From: a virus
Length of the DNA stretch: 35,289 nt
Reading direction: 5' to 3' (one strand)
IMG/VR virus record: IMGVR_UViG_3300006917_000077
Coordinates: 1 to 35,289 of that record
A program made the translations under genes and the position numbers. Each line of letters opens with the position of its first letter. The first letter of the stretch is position 1. Below are positions 3,296 through 27,968 of the stretch, piece by piece. The notes beneath the pieces are model-generated. The model saw nothing but the letters and a program-made list of their open reading frames with translations. It had not been told where the DNA came from and searched no databases.

Positions 3296-3366
3296 TCAAG
3301 GTAGGACGAATCGAACGTCCGACTAAAGTATCCAAGACTCCTGTGATGCCACTTCACCATACCCTG
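3296..3366 (-). tRNA. tRNA-Pro (anticodon UGG)
   Basis: Cloverleaf on the minus strand: acceptor CAGGGTA/TACCTTG, D-stem GTGA/TCAC, anticodon stem GGAGT/ACTTT with loop CTTGGAT (anticodon TGG), 4-nt variable loop, T-stem GGACG/CGTCC with loop TTCGATT, discriminator A. C1:G72 and A73 with G35 G36 are proline identity features in bacteria. The acceptor contains a G3:U70 wobble. CCA is not encoded. The gene is directly followed by an HNH gene, and a better-fitting 3' half lies beyond that gene. Confidence 0.88.
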
Positions 3367-3398
3367 TATTACAAAAAGACTCTCCCTTTGTTCCTCCA

Positions 3399-3651
3399 CC
3401 CCTTAAACCAGGGGAATCCGACTACCGCACCACAGACTTGCATACCTAAAAGGGAAATCAGATGCATTGCTGTAGTGCACGGTGAGAGGTGGCCACCCTC
3501 TAAGAGTATTGATCAATCTGTTGCACTGCTTTGATCACTCTGGTATTACGCGAGGCGATCCTTTCGGACCCGCATGCTTGTACGTAATCATTCTGCCCAT
3601 TAAGGCAACCGCATGAGGTTTTTCACAGGCACGTTTTACGTTCTTGCCTGT
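3399..3651 (-). ncRNA. Candidate ornate structured RNA between two tRNA genes
   Basis: No minus-strand gene is visible between the tRNAs. Instead there is a row of stems, listed 5' to 3' on the minus strand: 3651-3645/3631-3625 (7 bp), 3588-3583/3550-3545 (6 bp) enclosing a GNRA hairpin with loop GAAA at 3565-3562, 3541-3531 with 3516-3503 (GATCAA/TTGATC plus AGAGT/ACTCT), 3501-3497/3489-3485 (5 bp), 3478-3470/3435-3427 (9 bp, one GU) enclosing 3466-3462/3443-3439, and 3414-3410/3403-3399 (5 bp). It does not match RNase P, tmRNA or group I/II intron cores by eye. The 3367-3398 remainder is unstructured and ends in a TTTTT run. Function is unknown. Confidence 0.4.
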
Positions 3652-3673
3652 ACACAACGGGGTTTGATGATAA

Positions 3674-3701
3674 ACAAAAAACCCACTGAACTGAGAGGGT
3701 T
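3674..3701 (-). terminator. Intrinsic terminator overlapping a three-way-junction RNA
   Basis: On the minus strand AACCC (3701-3697) pairs with GGGTT (3684-3680), followed by a run of six T. The stem is short (5 bp, 12-nt loop), so it is a modest terminator. Its 5' arm overlaps the 3' strand of an alternative helix, so the two folds exclude each other. Confidence 0.5.
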
Positions 3702-3777
3702 GCAAAGGCCAAACTTATGCCTTGGTGATATGCTCACCTCCCACTCAATTCAAAGGGTTTGAAAGTTTGTTTATGCA
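3692..3777 (-). ncRNA. Candidate small RNA or riboswitch-like attenuator
   Basis: Helix P1 (3747-3740 with 3699-3692, TGAGTGGG/CCCTCTCA, 7 of 8 pairs) encloses P2 (GGTGA/TCACC, 3738-3734 and 3728-3724) and P3 (AAGGC/GCCTT, 3723-3719 and 3709-3705). Junction strands are 1, 0 and 5 nt, a compact three-way junction. A 6-bp hairpin (3763-3758/3754-3749) precedes it. The terminator just downstream competes with P1. An extended -10 promoter lies upstream. No ligand or family is recognised. Confidence 0.4.
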
Positions 3778-3783
3778 ATGGCA

Positions 3784-3792
3784 ACTATAACA
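3784..3792 (-). promoter_or_regulatory. Extended -10 promoter (TGtTATAGT)
   Basis: On the minus strand TG-T-TATAGT lies about 35-43 nt downstream of the tRNA-Met 3' end. No good -35 box is visible, as is common with extended -10 promoters. It would start transcription near 3777, just ahead of the three-way-junction RNA. Confidence 0.4.
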
Positions 3793-3826
3793 TACTTATT
3801 TTTCTTTTGTGTAGTGGATAACTTTA

Positions 3827-3900
3827 TTGCGGGGGTCGGATTCGAACCGACGACCTACTGGATATGAGCCAGCCGAGCTGCCAGACTGCTCTACCCCGCG
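3827..3900 (-). tRNA. Initiator-type tRNA-Met (anticodon CAU)
   Basis: The 74-nt cloverleaf has acceptor CGCGGGG/CCCCGCA, D-stem GAGC/GCTC, anticodon stem GCTGG/CCAGT with loop CTCATAT (anticodon CAT), T-stem GTCGG/CCGAC with loop TTCGAAT, and discriminator A. The unpaired C1-A72 end and A11:U24 pair are marks of bacterial initiator tRNA. The usual three G:C pairs of the anticodon stem are only partly kept (one is U29:A41). CCA is not encoded. The stop codon of the upstream membrane-protein gene lies within its first 10 nt. Confidence 0.92.
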
Positions 3901-4175
3901 TTAAATAACTCCCGTATAGAAAGGAATATAGCACATATTGTGCCTACTGACAAGAATAACCGCCAGATGATTCGTCGCAGGAACTTACCATCCTGCCAGT
4001 AGGTCAATACCTTATCAAACACAGTGATTATAGGGGAGATATCCACTCTTAGCCCCTCAATAGCGTTCGTATTGTTGGTTAAAGCCACCTGCATCGTGTC
4101 AATGCGTTCATGGATAAGTCGGTGGTCGTTGTGGGACTTTTCTATATGGTCCCGTAAAGACACGGTTTCAGGCAT
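3891..4175 (-). CDS. Tail-anchored membrane protein of the lysis region, 94 aa
   Basis: A soluble N-terminal region with coiled-coil character (about 1-60, His- and Asp-rich, e.g. HIEKSHNDHRLIHERID) is followed by one C-terminal hydrophobic helix (about 70-88, IIWRLFLSVGTICAIFL). It lies 1 nt after the two-helix holin-like gene and near the amidase, so a holin, antiholin or spanin-like role is plausible but not shown. Its last codons and TAG stop overlap the 5' end of tRNA-Met, which limits how the CDS end can change. Confidence 0.7.
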   Translation of the reverse strand: MPETVSLRDHIEKSHNDHRLIHERIDTMQVALTNNTNAIEGLRVDISPIITVFDKVLTYWQDGKFLRRIIWRLFLSVGTICAIFLSIRELFNAG

Positions 4176-7501: not shown

Positions 7502-10264
7502 TTAAGCAAGTTTAGTTAAAGCTTGGTGTAACTCACCATTTGCCCCGAAGAAGCGGTTATATACCGACTTCTGGACATCAGGAGTGCTACGCGCAAATTG
7601 CTGACCGCCCGACCAGCGATCACGATAGATTTGGGTGATAATCTTACTTTCAGGCGCGTCAGGTCCCAATCGTCTAAATACATTTGCCACGATATTTGTA
7701 TTAGGACCATGCTGGACGGCAGTTGACCAAATAACGTCTTTCATAACAGGCGATAACCTATTTACATCAATGCCAATCCCCTCCAATTTCTTTGCCTGAG
7801 GTTCATAGTGAGTCCGCTCAATATAATCATGTTGCAGTGCCTCGAATCCATCAGGGTCCATCTTTGCAATTTCCTTCCACTTCTTCTGAAATGTAGCGGA
7901 ATCAGGGGAAAGACCATCAAAGTATTTTGCATATGGTGTCTGATCAATAAACGTCTTAGCACTCCCATGTGCCAATTGATAGGTCCCAAACGAATACCCT
8001 CCTGTATTGTCGTAACCGATAGCACCAGGATCACCGCCTGACTCAAATTTCTGAGACAGCGAACCTATTCCGTCATTTTTTTTTTCTCGACCCATTGCTG
8101 TGTCGCCGAGTACTGCGGTTAAGTCTGCCCCATAACGATCAGCGAGGTATTGATACTCATCAGCCTTGTTTTGATAAAGCGTTTCAACATCCGCCCGCAA
8201 GCGATCAGCAACCGACACCATAGCTTTACGGTCTTCATCGGTTAATGATGCACCACCTTGTTCCAGTGTGCCAAGACGACCCTGAATCCAGTTCATTGCG
8301 TTTTGACCGTTCTCAGAACGAGCGTATTCCCCTTCACGTACGACGGAACCTGGGTCAAGCATTTTGTTAAACAACACAATCAATGCCTGGTCAGCAGGAC
8401 CCTTTGAGTTCGGGTTAGAGAGTGATTCTTGATACGCCGAGTTCATGTTGACGTATGACTTTTCAATATCACCGTATTGTTTGACAATAGGCTCGGCACC
8501 GAAGTCCTTACGCAACTGCATTTCCGTTTTCATAATCTCGGCAGGATCACCTTGCATTGCTTTCAACGTATCAATCTTTAACTTCTGAGCATCCAGCTCA
8601 AAGTTTTGTTGAGCATTACGTAACATCTCAACTTTGTATTGTTGATCAAAGGCTTGTGATGCTTGCTGTGCAGCTTGGTCTTTTGCTTGTAAGTTCTGAT
8701 CAAAAAGGATTTGATCCTTTACCACCTTCATACCTTCCGTCAGTACTTGAAATGGAATACCAACCTTAGCTGAAAGCGTGGCAAGTTGTGCCTGGCTGTC
8801 AGCGGACAAATCATCAATATCAAGACCTTTAAATTGAGTAAGAATAGCGGCAAGGTTTTGACGTGCATTGTCTTGTAATGATTGTGCTCTCGCAAATGCG
8901 CGATCTTCATTAGCTTGAATAGCGTCCTTCATTTTAAAAGCGACATCCAAATCTTGAGCGGCGTACTCCAACAATCCTTGTAATCCTGCAAGCTGCGTTT
9001 TGCGGTTGTCCTGTGCAATACCGAGACGTTCCGTAAGGTTTGCCTCCTGTCCTTGTAAGGTTTGTAGGATAAGATTTGCTTGTCGTTGTAATACAGCCCC
9101 TTGTCCGATAAGAGGTTCCATAGGGATAGCCTGTGCAGCGATCTTATTGATACCTGCTTGTGCAGAAAGGTCAGTGTCAGTGATTTGTTTATGGAGATCA
9201 GTAAGTGCACCTTGCAGCTGTTGTTCAGTGCTATTAGGAGAGAGCGCATTCATAAATTGCTCACGCAATGCAGCCTGTCTATCAAGAACATTTTGAATCT
9301 CAAGATCCATCCCCGCTGTAGAGTTCGCTGCATGGAGACCGAGCGTAGTACTGATGTCAGTAGCAGATGGTGTACTCCCATCAAACGCAGATGATACTGT
9401 TTTTGCACCAAATGTTGTGGGAATATCAGTTTTAAAATCTTGTGCTTGTCCTGCAACGTTACCCGCAAATGCCTGTCCTACAGGTAAAAAGGGGGAGCGT
9501 TCTCGTAGAACGATATTTGCAGCATCCTTTACGGACATTTGACCGAACTTGAGAAGTTCCGCAGCGGTAGCATCACGTCCAAATTGTTCTTTGAATAAAG
9601 CATTGACAAAGGCCGTGTTTGCAGGCTTATCAGGGGACGTAACTGCATCAGCAATCCCAGGGATCTTATAGTTCATCATTGTTTTAAGCTCGGCAGGTGT
9701 GTGGTATTGCACTGCCGCCGCTTGTTGTGCAGGAAGCGCTGCAATACTGACAGGCGCAGGGGTACCAGGTGCTTGGTAAGGATTAAGCTTAGCCAGCTCA
9801 GGGTTCGCTTTTGCAGATTCATTATAAATATCTTGCTGAGTCATTCCTGCAAGGCGGGTGTTATTTGCTTTAAATTGCTCAGGTGTCAAAAAGGAAGGAT
9901 CTTGCTCATTCTTTAACGTTTTCATGTCAGTAAATCGCCCCGTAGAATCAATCACCATTCCAGAGTCTCCCGCAGTAGTCGAAGAACCCGATAATCCCCC
10001 ATACTTTGTCACTGCATCGTTATAGGTAGCCAATGCCTTTGCTGCATCACTTTGAAAAACCGCGTTTTTTGTAGCCAATTGCTCGACACGTTTCGCTTCA
10101 TTCTGTAAGCCAGTAATGTATTGGTCTTTTGTAACAGGAACAAAGCCCTGCTGAATAAGGGACTGCTCATTTGCCGCATCTTTAGGCGCAGCAATCTGAT
10201 AACTGTCGATACCATTGACGGTCGTCTTGAAGAATTTATTTTGTACTGGGATTGGATCTGCCAT
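7502..10264 (-). CDS. Giant internal virion protein with C-terminal muralytic domain
   Basis: 920 residues. The long middle is helical and rich in Gln and Ala (about 300-600). The last 189 residues (about 732-920) form a lysozyme/transglycosylase-like domain, with FESGGDPGAIGY (probable catalytic Glu near 741), GGYSFGTYQLAHG and WSTAVQHGP. Domains with the SGGDPG...GGxSxGTYQ pattern occur in phage virion lysins. In short-tailed phages such proteins are packed in the head and ejected to open the wall during DNA entry. An extended -10 box lies 8 nt before the ATG. Confidence 0.82.
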   Translation of the reverse strand: MADPIPVQNKFFKTTVNGIDSYQIAAPKDAANEQSLIQQGFVPVTKDQYITGLQNEAKRVEQLATKNAVFQSDAAKALATYNDAVTKYGGLSGSSTTAGDSGMVIDSTGRFTDMKTLKNEQDPSFLTPEQFKANNTRLAGMTQQDIYNESAKANPELAKLNPYQAPGTPAPVSIAALPAQQAAAVQYHTPAELKTMMNYKIPGIADAVTSPDKPANTAFVNALFKEQFGRDATAAELLKFGQMSVKDAANIVLRERSPFLPVGQAFAGNVAGQAQDFKTDIPTTFGAKTVSSAFDGSTPSATDISTTLGLHAANSTAGMDLEIQNVLDRQAALREQFMNALSPNSTEQQLQGALTDLHKQITDTDLSAQAGINKIAAQAIPMEPLIGQGAVLQRQANLILQTLQGQEANLTERLGIAQDNRKTQLAGLQGLLEYAAQDLDVAFKMKDAIQANEDRAFARAQSLQDNARQNLAAILTQFKGLDIDDLSADSQAQLATLSAKVGIPFQVLTEGMKVVKDQILFDQNLQAKDQAAQQASQAFDQQYKVEMLRNAQQNFELDAQKLKIDTLKAMQGDPAEIMKTEMQLRKDFGAEPIVKQYGDIEKSYVNMNSAYQESLSNPNSKGPADQALIVLFNKMLDPGSVVREGEYARSENGQNAMNWIQGRLGTLEQGGASLTDEDRKAMVSVADRLRADVETLYQNKADEYQYLADRYGADLTAVLGDTAMGREKKNDGIGSLSQKFESGGDPGAIGYDNTGGYSFGTYQLAHGSAKTFIDQTPYAKYFDGLSPDSATFQKKWKEIAKMDPDGFEALQHDYIERTHYEPQAKKLEGIGIDVNRLSPVMKDVIWSTAVQHGPNTNIVANVFRRLGPDAPESKIITQIYRDRWSGGQQFARSTPDVQKSVYNRFFGANGELHQALTKLA

Positions 10265-15934: not shown

Positions 15935-17742
15935 ACGGTTGATGTAGGTGAAGGATTAGCACCGCCAGCAGAGGCTTCCATCATCGGTGCAGCATTTGGC
16001 ATAGCCGCAGGCATACCAGGTACGCCAGCAGGAGCCGCAGGAGCAGGCGCACTGCCCGCACCAAAGAGCTTGATAGGGTTCTGACCAGAGCGATTCATAA
16101 TCATGTCAAGCAAGTTCTTCACAATAGGAATTTGCATTGCTTGAGGATTTGCAGAGAGAATCTGGAATACCGTCGTGAGTGACTCAACATCAGCTGATGC
16201 AACGCTTTCACCTGTAATATCAATTTCAATATGGTGTTTGAGATCTTTGTAGTACGCATCAGGAAGTTCACAATGCAAACCGTCCTTACCCATAACAGAT
16301 TCTTCAACACGAGCACGTTCCCGTGCATATGCTTCAGGGGACGGATACTTCCCTGTTTTTTTGTAAAACTTTTGTATTGCCTCCCACATGTGCGCATCAA
16401 TAAGAAAGCCTGATACTTTTTCTAGCTGCTCGGCTGTCCCATCAAACTGGAATGTATGGGATGCACGCTTCTTCTTCATAAACGCAGGCAATACAAAATC
16501 CCAAATGATCTCTTTAATGAAAAGCGCAAAGTTTTCACGCTTATAGGCATAATGAGAGTTTACGGCTTGAGAAAGCAACGCTCCCATACGGAACGGTGTT
16601 CCCGACGGTAATGCTTCACCTGTGTTGACCTCAAACGTAAATGATCGTTGATTAGAATTGTCATTGATACGATCAAATACGAGGTTGTACTGCGGTAAAT
16701 TGCGCTCTTCCATTGATACAGGCGTGAGCTCAGACTTAAGCGTCAGCACTTGGCCGTTAGCAACATCGGAAAACAAGTTTGCGGGAGCCGTATCATCCCG
16801 CGTTTGAAAAAGCTTCTTTGAAGACCAGTGCAATGACTTACGTTCAAGATGGGTAATATCATTGTGATATTCCTGGTTAACAAACAAATCTTCCACAATA
16901 CCCACGCCTAAACAACGTCCTTCCTCTTCCTCCCAGTGGTAAATCTTATAAGGCCACTCATCAACCTCAGCAGCGTCCAGCTCAATAGGGGTGATCGTAC
17001 GGTCCGATTGCTTAGGATCAGTGCTGTAGAACTCAAGTCCCGCTAGGATAACGCGTCCTCGTGCAAAGTCTTTTGACTCAGTGTCTTTTGCATCTTTAAC
17101 AAAATCAGACTTATTACCATATCCATACCACTCAATAACTTGTATAGCGGTGCATTTCTTTTGTTTGTATGTTTCTAATACATTCTCAACCGCCTCAGAA
17201 TCCCACGCACGTTCAAGTGCTTCCTCACGAAATTCATCAGGCGAGTAAATGTGTTTTTCAATAACAAAAGATGATTTTTTGATATTTGACTGCGTAACAT
17301 CCCATGCCATATTGCGGATATTGCACAACTCAGGTGTACCTTGGCAGTCTTTAACAATAGCTGACCCATACCGCGGGGCAACCTCAGCAATACGGTTAAA
17401 CAACCGTGCAAAACCTTCATCCTTCATGAATTGCTTCAGCTCGCGCTCAAAAAACCATGCGCGATAGTATGATTCACCATCCTCCGCAATAACGCGTATG
17501 TCTTTTGTATCAATATCAATTGCTTTGGTGGCTGCATTACAGCGAAACTTTGTGATGTTTGAAAATAACTTTTTAAAACCTTCGGAGTCTGTGTTTCCCT
17601 TAATAAATTGAGAGTTGTAATATCGATCAATCTTATTAAGCGTATTCGGCAAATTAAATGTAACACCAGCAGTGATCACCGTCTCTTCACGTTCCACCTC
17701 ATCCAGTTGTCGTTTTACTTTTGAGAGTATTGAAGTTTCCAT
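15931..17742 (-). CDS. Portal protein, 603 aa
   Basis: The dodecameric ring through which DNA enters and leaves the head. It is large with alternating helix and strand and many aromatic and acidic patches typical of portals (EWPYKIYHWEEEEGRCLGVG, then NQEYHNDITHLERKSLHWSS). The last 45 residues are rich in Ala, Pro and Met and probably disordered. The size is close to podoviral connectors. The order is unusual: the portal lies after the capsid genes and beyond the glycan cassette rather than next to terminase. A hairpin terminator abuts its start codon. Confidence 0.85.
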   Translation of the reverse strand: METSILSKVKRQLDEVEREETVITAGVTFNLPNTLNKIDRYYNSQFIKGNTDSEGFKKLFSNITKFRCNAATKAIDIDTKDIRVIAEDGESYYRAWFFERELKQFMKDEGFARLFNRIAEVAPRYGSAIVKDCQGTPELCNIRNMAWDVTQSNIKKSSFVIEKHIYSPDEFREEALERAWDSEAVENVLETYKQKKCTAIQVIEWYGYGNKSDFVKDAKDTESKDFARGRVILAGLEFYSTDPKQSDRTITPIELDAAEVDEWPYKIYHWEEEEGRCLGVGIVEDLFVNQEYHNDITHLERKSLHWSSKKLFQTRDDTAPANLFSDVANGQVLTLKSELTPVSMEERNLPQYNLVFDRINDNSNQRSFTFEVNTGEALPSGTPFRMGALLSQAVNSHYAYKRENFALFIKEIIWDFVLPAFMKKKRASHTFQFDGTAEQLEKVSGFLIDAHMWEAIQKFYKKTGKYPSPEAYARERARVEESVMGKDGLHCELPDAYYKDLKHHIEIDITGESVASADVESLTTVFQILSANPQAMQIPIVKNLLDMIMNRSGQNPIKLFGAGSAPAPAAPAGVPGMPAAMPNAAPMMEASAGGANPSPTSTV

Positions 17743-26500: not shown

Positions 26501-26941
26501 TTAAATAGCGATACGACTTAGCATACTCTCCACTGACGAATTACGTTGACCTGTCACCGTCAGGTGATCGTTAGGCGGTAATGTCAGGTCTTTCTTTGCT
26601 TCCTCCAACTCAGCGGCACGCGCCGCATTTTGTGCAGCCAACGTATCTTTGATGAGTTTTTTAATAACCCCTTTGCGGCGTGACACTGCTGTCTTTTCCA
26701 AGATGGCGTACTGACGTGCTTGCTCAGCCATCATCATGTTGTAATACGTTTGACCAGTTGAAGTACCAAGATAGGTGAAACCAAATGTCACTGCCTTTTT
26801 GTATGTTGCGTACGCCTCTGATGCTTCACACGAAAACACCATCCCATCACGGCGTTGGAAAAAATAAACCCGTTTAGGTAGTTCAATGTTACCCACGATT
26901 ATCTCATCGGTGAGAGGTGCGGGACCTGCTGGCATATTCAT
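26501..26941 (-). CDS. Hypothetical head-region protein, 146 aa
   Basis: Starts MNMPAGPAPL. A longer frame to 27001 would run through the capsid-end hairpins and is rejected. An AAAGGAAA ribosome site, weak but present, lies 8 nt before the ATG. The N-terminal half looks like a small beta domain (VYFFQRRDGMVFSCEAS); the rest is helical and basic. It may be a head-completion or decoration protein, but the family is unknown. Confidence 0.72.
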   Translation of the reverse strand: MNMPAGPAPLTDEIIVGNIELPKRVYFFQRRDGMVFSCEASEAYATYKKAVTFGFTYLGTSTGQTYYNMMMAEQARQYAILEKTAVSRRKGVIKKLIKDTLAAQNAARAAELEEAKKDLTLPPNDHLTVTGQRNSSVESMLSRIAI

Positions 26942-26959
26942 AAGATTGTTTCCTTTATG

Positions 26960-27023
26960 TTGCTCACCCCTCCCATAAAGGTAGGAAGGGCGAGCAAACA
27001 ATCCTTGCAGCGTAGAGCGCTGC
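26960..27023 (-). promoter_or_regulatory. Two tandem RNA hairpins after the capsid gene
   Basis: Minus-strand hairpin A (27023-27018/27012-27007) pairs GCAGCG with CGCTGC around a 5-nt loop. Hairpin B (26997-26984 with 26974-26960) has a 13-bp interrupted stem (TTGCTC/GAGCAA plus CCCTTCC/GGGAGGG). No T run follows, so they are not typical terminators. They may protect the capsid mRNA end or lower read-through. Confidence 0.6.
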
Positions 27024-27029
27024 TATCGA

Positions 27030-27968
27030 CTATGAGCCGATGAAGGATGACGAACCATTGACCACAACACCAGCAGCGTCACGGAGTTCTGCAACACCAT
27101 AGATGATGTCAGAAACCGTAAGCATACCGAGGTTTTGGATAAGGTTATCAGCCTGTACACGAACCTTTGATCCTCCAGGAGTCTGTACGGCAAAACCGAG
27201 ACATGACTTGTGGAGTAAGAGGTTACGGTAGGTCTGAAGACCTGACACAACGTTAGTGGTCTGGAAGATTGGAATACCGTAGAGGTGACCAATCAAACCA
27301 CGTGAGACATCCATAGGTCCGAAGTTACCCTCACGGATAAATGACTGACCGAATACAGACGTACCACCAACAGCCTGGCTCATATCGTAGTACTTTGCGA
27401 TTGCAGCGAGCTGCACCCAGAAAATATACGGATGGATGAACCATGCACACTCACGAATGTCGAAGTTGGCAGACATGAGCTTGTTGATAGCAACACGTAC
27501 TTCAGAGTCATTCAACACAGTTGCGGTATCACCCGAGCTGTTAGTTGAAAGACCTGACCACAATGCAGCGATGTCAGCTTCAAGAGCGCTGGCAAGGATG
27601 CCAGCAGTCTTGCGTGCATATACTGCGTTGAAGTCATAGCTGCGTGAAAGCTGAGCCTTGTCCTTATCACCGATAATGTGCGCAATATACTTGTGCGTAT
27701 TAACGGTAAGGGTGGTATCAACTTGTGCAGGACCAGCGGTCGTAACTTCTGCACCTTGTGTTGACTGCGTTTGAGCAGAGAACGTGTTGGTGTAGATGTC
27801 AGGAACGTGGAAGATATCACCACCATTCTGAGCAAATGGACTCAAGTCAGTGATGAAGTTTGCGAAGACTGTTTTTGCAAACAGTTCTTCATTGATGATC
27901 GGAGTCCAGACTTCTGGTACGAAGGCTGCAACGTCCGATGCAATGAAAGGATCTGATGTAACTGCCAT
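27030..27968 (-). CDS. Major capsid protein, 312 aa
   Basis: The main head shell subunit. Size, position after the scaffold gene and composition fit HK97-fold capsid proteins: WTPIINEELFAKTVFANFIT at the start, an E-loop-like middle, ARKTAGILASALEADIAALW as the long spine helix, and NNAV-like strands ending VYGVAEL-type (here IIYGVAELRDA). No maturation-cleavage site is visible and there is no separate protease gene, suggesting a scaffold-driven, uncleaved capsid. The leader has no ribosome site despite the need for high expression. Confidence 0.88.
   Translation of the reverse strand: MAVTSDPFIASDVAAFVPEVWTPIINEELFAKTVFANFITDLSPFAQNGGDIFHVPDIYTNTFSAQTQSTQGAEVTTAGPAQVDTTLTVNTHKYIAHIIGDKDKAQLSRSYDFNAVYARKTAGILASALEADIAALWSGLSTNSSGDTATVLNDSEVRVAINKLMSANFDIRECAWFIHPYIFWVQLAAIAKYYDMSQAVGGTSVFGQSFIREGNFGPMDVSRGLIGHLYGIPIFQTTNVVSGLQTYRNLLLHKSCLGFAVQTPGGSKVRVQADNLIQNLGMLTVSDIIYGVAELRDAAGVVVNGSSSFIGS

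Follow-up and report, generated by a model that had tools for sequence, protein, structure and literature searches.

A candidate small non-coding RNA beside tRNA-Met in the tRNA locus of a tailed phage

What fills 460 nt without a protein gene between two tRNA genes of a tightly packed phage genome? The window analysed is the whole stretch of 35,289 bp, positions 1–35,289 of IMG/VR record IMGVR_UViG_3300006917_000077, and belongs to an uncultured tailed phage. The large and small terminase subunits and the major head protein were recognized using PHROGs, and the minus strand carries nearly all long frames of the record. ARAGORN placed tRNA-Met and tRNA-Pro on the minus strand (Table 1), in agreement with a first-pass annotation that had described dense stem-loops between them. 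Since both flanking tRNAs lie on this strand, RNA from the gap (3367–3826) is most likely minus-strand RNA. Elsewhere in the record, a 920-aa protein is encoded at 7502–10264 (minus strand). Its C-terminal part has a Pfam match, to the T6SS VgrG3-like C-terminal domain (E 3.3e-43), and the protein is probably a phage wall-degrading enzyme.

Table 1. Features of the tRNA locus, in the order of minus-strand transcription
Feature	Position	Strand	Basis
Promoter-like site upstream of tRNA-Met, TTGTCA-17-TATATT, TG before −10	3925–3953	−	Consensus scan
tRNA-Met (CAT)	3827–3900	−	ARAGORN; Rfam tRNA, 59.5 bits
Promoter-like site TACACA-18-TATAGT, TG before −10	3784–3813	−	Consensus scan; predicted start ~3777
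Core RNA domain: three-way junction bearing two 5-bp hairpins, closed by an interrupted stem	3668–3777	−	z −4.5 to −4.8
Hairpin UACAGGC/GCCUGUG, inner ACGU/ACGU	3624–3652	−	Pair probability 0.98 and 0.73
Helix AUUACGU/GCGUAAU holding GAAA tetraloop hairpin	3545–3588	−	Pair probability 0.60 outer, 0.95 inner
AGAGU/ACUCU plus hairpin GAUCAA/UUGAUC	3503–3541	−	Pair probability 0.84–0.92
Hairpin AGAGG-GUGGCCA-CCUCU, 7-nt loop	3485–3501	−	Fold, pair probability 0.51
Stem GCACUACAG/CUGUGGUGC, inner UGCAU/AUGCA and CUGA/UUAG	3427–3478	−	Pair probability 0.81–0.99
tRNA-Pro (TGG)	3296–3366	−	ARAGORN; Rfam, 54.4 bits
HNH endonuclease, 118 aa	2929–3285	−	PHROGs phrog_3106, 1e-24
Leftover tRNA 3′ half GGTTCGATTCCTTTTACCCTGA	2908–2929	−	Directly at HNH stop codon
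Intrinsic-terminator-like hairpin GGCCCCTA...TAGGGGCT, then T run, end of unit	2854–2887	−	Fold; read from sequence

Coding potential was scored against the genome's own codon usage. All frames of at least 25 codons in the gap scored −0.01 to −0.35 bits per codon; 26 of 28 reference genes scored 0.09 to 0.39, and the remaining two, which are short, scored slightly below zero. With negative scores in every frame, the gap is no gene in disguise. The earlier description of a stretch without genes is upheld, and no small conserved ORF emerged that could account for the region.

Folding energies were compared with those of dinucleotide shuffles (200 or 300 per interval, 150 for 3673–3777). The stem-loop stretch singled out in the first-pass annotation, 3399–3651, folds at −72.4 kcal/mol on the plus strand against a shuffled mean of −67.8 (z −1.0; 31 of 200 shuffles equally stable) and at −80.7 kcal/mol on the minus strand against −72.6 (z −1.6; 11 of 200). 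With 300 shuffles, z was −1.1 on the plus strand (44 as stable) and −1.9 on the minus strand (14 as stable), and 3399–3672 taken alone gave z −1.9 on the minus strand. The annotated helices are present in the predicted minus-strand fold, as is the GNRA tetraloop (GAAA in TCC-GAAA-GGA, 3559–3568), but structure beyond chance was not confirmed within this interval. Its z of −1.0 to −1.9 comes close to folding no better than shuffled sequence, whereas the adjoining 3668–3777 is far more stable than its shuffles (z −4.7 to −4.8).

The whole gap has a minus-strand z of −4.2, with 0 of 300 shuffles as stable, and a plus-strand z of −2.4. The minus-strand excess comes from 3655–3786 (z −4.5; 0/300 shuffles as stable), more exactly from 3673–3777 (z −4.8; 0/150). 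The stem of the core domain has 2+9+6+10+3 pairs, that is 28 pairs plus 2 weak outermost ones. From 3777, 5′ to 3′, its helices are ATAAACAAA/TTTGTTTAT, AAACCC/GGGTTT, TTGAATTGAG/CTCAGTTCAG and GGG/CCC; the inner hairpins are GGTGA-GCATA-TCACC and AAGGC-ATAAGTTTG-GCCTT, with the RNA loops GCAUA and AUAAGUUUG. Mean pair probability is 0.90–0.99 in all helices but the outer 2-bp one, which has 0.58.

As a genome control, minus-strand windows were folded along the entire record (294 of 120 nt and 118 of 400 nt). Among the 120-nt windows, 3660–3779, which contains the core, ranked second in stability relative to shuffles (z −4.7); first was a hairpin next to the capsid gene, at z −7.3. This very stable hairpin of ~15 bp (CTCGCCCTTCC...GGAGGGGTGAG) lies just 3′ of the major capsid gene, in the record's most stable 120-nt window (26940–27059, minus strand). 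At the 400-nt scale, the tRNA-gap region ranked about eighth (30 shuffles). The nine lowest 400-nt windows were re-measured with 120 shuffles, giving z −3.9 for the tRNA-gap region; two windows were clearly lower and one about equal, and these are coding. Because coding windows reach equal or lower values, long-range folding energy alone does not single out the tRNA gap. The core is exceptional in stability, and the long region is not unique in the record.

As a structure, 3668–3777 is well supported by the predicted fold, be it a small RNA gene or an RNA terminator element. Its 3′ arm continues into TTTTTT, which makes the core readable as a terminator too. The locus could hold ordinary punctuation, a reading that we consider possible but do not favor, with 3668–3777 an elaborate terminator of the tRNA-Met unit beside the promoter of the tRNA-Pro unit and 3399–3651 an unconstrained spacer, its helices being what any 250-nt sequence of ~49% G+C shows. 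Consistent with this are the U6 directly 3′ of the core stem (TGGGTTTTTTG), the A-rich 5′ arm, a z of merely −1.0 to −1.9 over 3399–3651, and the second strong hairpin adjoining the capsid gene. However, terminators rarely have a branched three-way junction; U6 does follow the stem, but the stem is branched and the pattern scan makes no terminator call at 3668–3777. A spacer of 300 nt is also large for so tightly packed a genome.

By consensus scan, promoter-like sites are no commoner than in shuffles, so it is by position that the site at 3784–3813 supports an RNA gene: its predicted start coincides with the base of the core stem at 3777. No promoter-like site was found by the same scan in 3367–3660, so tRNA-Pro is probably co-transcribed with the candidate RNA. 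The loop size of the terminator-like hairpin at 2854–2887 kept it from being called by the pattern scan.

Known RNA families were compared using Rfam covariance models. A cmscan with permissive filters, to E=5, returned the two known tRNAs and two weak, unrelated matches elsewhere. The stretch has no Rfam match at this threshold; the first-pass annotation had likewise seen no match to GOLLD or ROOL. The GOLLD model (RF02032) gave no match at E≤10, and the HEARO model (RF02033) gave none. The ROOL model (RF03087) gave none either; as it also found none in control genomes, the cmscan is the firmer test. ARAGORN and cmscan to E=5 detected no tRNA or tmRNA beyond the two known tRNAs; degenerate tRNAs, tmRNA, and a group I intron were ruled out by the ARAGORN and Rfam scans.

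In packaging RNA of the phi29 type, ~110–120 nt fold with paired ends around a three-way junction that bears two hairpins, and the 3668–3777 core resembles it in each of these respects. This candidate was rejected: there is no Rfam match, and the core loops are not mutually complementary. The omega RNA HEARO, which accompanies IscB, is likewise a structured RNA 5′ of an HNH gene. Here a tRNA intervenes, and the downstream protein is just 118 aa, an HNH protein of phrog_3106 that is not IscB-like; with no model match, HEARO was set aside too. GOLLD and ROOL, both of unknown function, occur close to tRNA islands, with GOLLD env-38 lying downstream of a Met-tRNA (PMC12286853). The candidate RNA shares with GOLLD the setting next to phage tRNAs, here downstream of tRNA-Met as for env-38 (PMC12286853), but differs in sequence; many GOLLD members exceed 800 nt and have a conserved 3′ region. 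ROOL, also a phage non-coding RNA near tRNA islands, has 574 model positions and many pseudoknots. The candidate has no match to either model. Comparison with these ornate RNAs is confined to single-sequence folding, with minus-strand z of −1.9 for 3399–3651 and −4.2 for the whole gap.

Downstream of the core, pair probabilities are high for the helices at 3624–3652, 3503–3541, and 3427–3478, and the other helices are uncertain. The interval 3399–3651 contains seven 6-nt palindromes, where windows average 2.4 and 0.7% of genome windows have as many, which is an unusual density for the spacer that ordinary punctuation would leave. One of them, the self-complementary UGGCCA, fills most of the 7-nt loop of the hairpin at 3485–3501 and could possibly form a kissing loop or dimer. 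Palindromes at this density, one filling a hairpin loop, would suit a new class of large structured RNA of ~410 nt (3367–3777), GOLLD- or ROOL-like, forming a kissing-loop oligomer and released from tRNA-Pro by RNase P. The whole-region minus-strand z of −4.2 and the position downstream of tRNA-Met, as in GOLLD env-38 (PMC12286853), also speak for such a class. It is nevertheless unlikely: the 3399–3651 half is not significantly structured, there is neither an Rfam match nor a second example, and a 6-nt palindrome in one of ~10 loops is not rare by chance (~30% by our own estimate). A further reading would make this 411-nt stretch (3777 to 3367) the first known example of a new class of phage tRNA-locus RNAs, its three-way-junction core and palindrome-rich multi-hairpin domain assembling into an RNA-only multimer; we consider it improbable. 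Judged by its predicted folds, 3399–3651 is best read as a loosely structured spacer leading into tRNA-Pro.

Homologues were sought in several ways. The large terminase subunit (TerL) as query returned 72 loci, one of them another record of the same phage (L126, 100%). A two-TerL alignment returned 32 viral loci, of which two had been seen before, plus 14 genome loci. Neither the 920-aa protein nor the endolysin led to any relatives when used as query. A 603-aa protein as query led to G051, the only close relative found, a 36.7-kb genome whose TerL is 50% and whose capsid protein is 46% identical and in which several structural genes are ordered as in the window phage. G051 has neither a tRNA nor a similar RNA. 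At 17108–17637 (L214) it has a 530-nt gap without long frames that contains a long, near-perfect hairpin. Read and folded as a possible counterpart, this gap was rejected; it lies at another genome position and shows no similarity. In L134, a distant TerL relative, a tRNA-Met (2303–2377) is followed by a simple terminator before the next gene, and no similar RNA is present. A search of ~100 more distant TerL relatives (whole record or locus) with the RNA sequence gave only chance matches of 11–40 nt. Covariance model R1, built from a single sequence and therefore of low reach, matched the window alone, larger TerL relatives being among those searched. Blastn of phages and plasmids (E up to 10) returned nothing beyond chance matches, and an exact 18-mer pattern scan gave no match. 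The exact pattern GGTGAGCATATCACC matched many unrelated contigs because it is palindromic and too short. The searches of IMG/VR, phages, plasmids, and the TerL relatives yielded no homologue of the RNA.

The other side of tRNA-Pro carries what look like traces of a mobile element. The HNH gene starts ten bases 3′ of tRNA-Pro, and the leftover tRNA 3′ half at its stop codon shares 17 of 21 bases with the 3′ end of tRNA-Pro, a score that 0 of 300 shuffles equalled. TACCCTG in the leftover half can form Watson–Crick pairs throughout with CAGGGTA, the 5′ acceptor strand of tRNA-Pro, whereas the tRNA's own TACCTTG has to form one G-U pair. These sequences are most simply read as showing that the HNH gene entered the tRNA gene with a replacement 3′ half, displacing the old one in the manner of a homing element. 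HNH relatives lie at tRNA genes in four of the five phages examined (L267, L268, L270, and L271): in cyanophage S-CAM3 a tRNA-Pro overlaps the end of the HNH gene, in cyanophage DSL-LC02 tRNA-Ser and tRNA-Pro are present, in Pseudomonas phage nickie tRNA-Met, and in halovirus HGTV-1 the gene lies between tRNA-Ala and tRNA-Phe. Inspection of the relatives' loci by eye found no leftover tRNA halves, so the replacement mechanism is drawn from the window itself. In S-CAM3, ARAGORN calls a tmRNA (L267:325–639) at a place annotated in the record as a small hypothetical protein. SegB of T4-like phages belongs to an endonuclease family other than HNH, and here an HNH gene is combined with a leftover tRNA 3′ half. 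The likeness is an endonuclease gene within a phage tRNA region, the setting also of homing endonucleases such as SegB (PMC13096335). As a side finding, the HNH gene flanked by the intact tRNA-Pro and the leftover half may be firmer than the RNA finding.

Alternatively, the gap could hold a decayed remnant (of old tRNAs, of a gene, or of a mobile insertion) in a tRNA locus that an HNH element has visited. The clear tRNA 3′ half on the far side of the HNH gene is compatible with this, as are 16 nt at 3414–3429 on the plus strand that resemble the tRNA-Met 3′ end (2 of 300 shuffles). Yet the stretch has no tRNA match even at E=5, codon scores are negative in all frames, and pairing in the core domain is too good for decay, which makes a remnant improbable.

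We read the gap, tentatively and at somewhat less than even confidence, as holding a small non-coding RNA gene on the minus strand of a tailed-phage tRNA locus, starting at ~3777. The candidate RNA has a stable fold with a strand bias, carries no coding signal, and matches no known family in Rfam. A small RNA gene is suggested by the stability of its core (second of 294 windows; 3673–3777 at z −4.8, 0/150), by the lower z of the minus strand over the whole gap (−4.2 vs −2.4), and by a non-coding unit with a promoter-like start at the stem base and a terminator-like hairpin at its end. Against it stand the absence of any homologue found, promoter-like sites no commoner than in shuffles, a stem followed by U6 that fits a terminator equally well, and coding 400-nt windows of similar z.

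In the proposed scheme, transcription would start near 3777 from the promoter-like site just 3′ of tRNA-Met, and the first ~105–110 nt of the transcript would fold into the long stem closing a three-way junction. The U6 tract at the end of the core could stop part of the transcripts. The resulting short RNA (~105–110 nt) would be the most likely functional product, probably either a stable RNA acting in trans during infection or a stable structure capping the transcript's 5′ end. Transcripts that read through would include the looser helices of 3399–3651, then tRNA-Pro and the HNH gene, and end at the terminator (~2854–2887), and an RNase P cut at the tRNA-Pro 5′ end would free an upstream RNA of ~411 nt.

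At present the candidate RNA is an orphan of one phage. If expressed, it would add one more kind of non-coding RNA to phage tRNA islands, beside ROOL and GOLLD, and as a shorter, simpler RNA with a ~110-nt core it would be easier to test.
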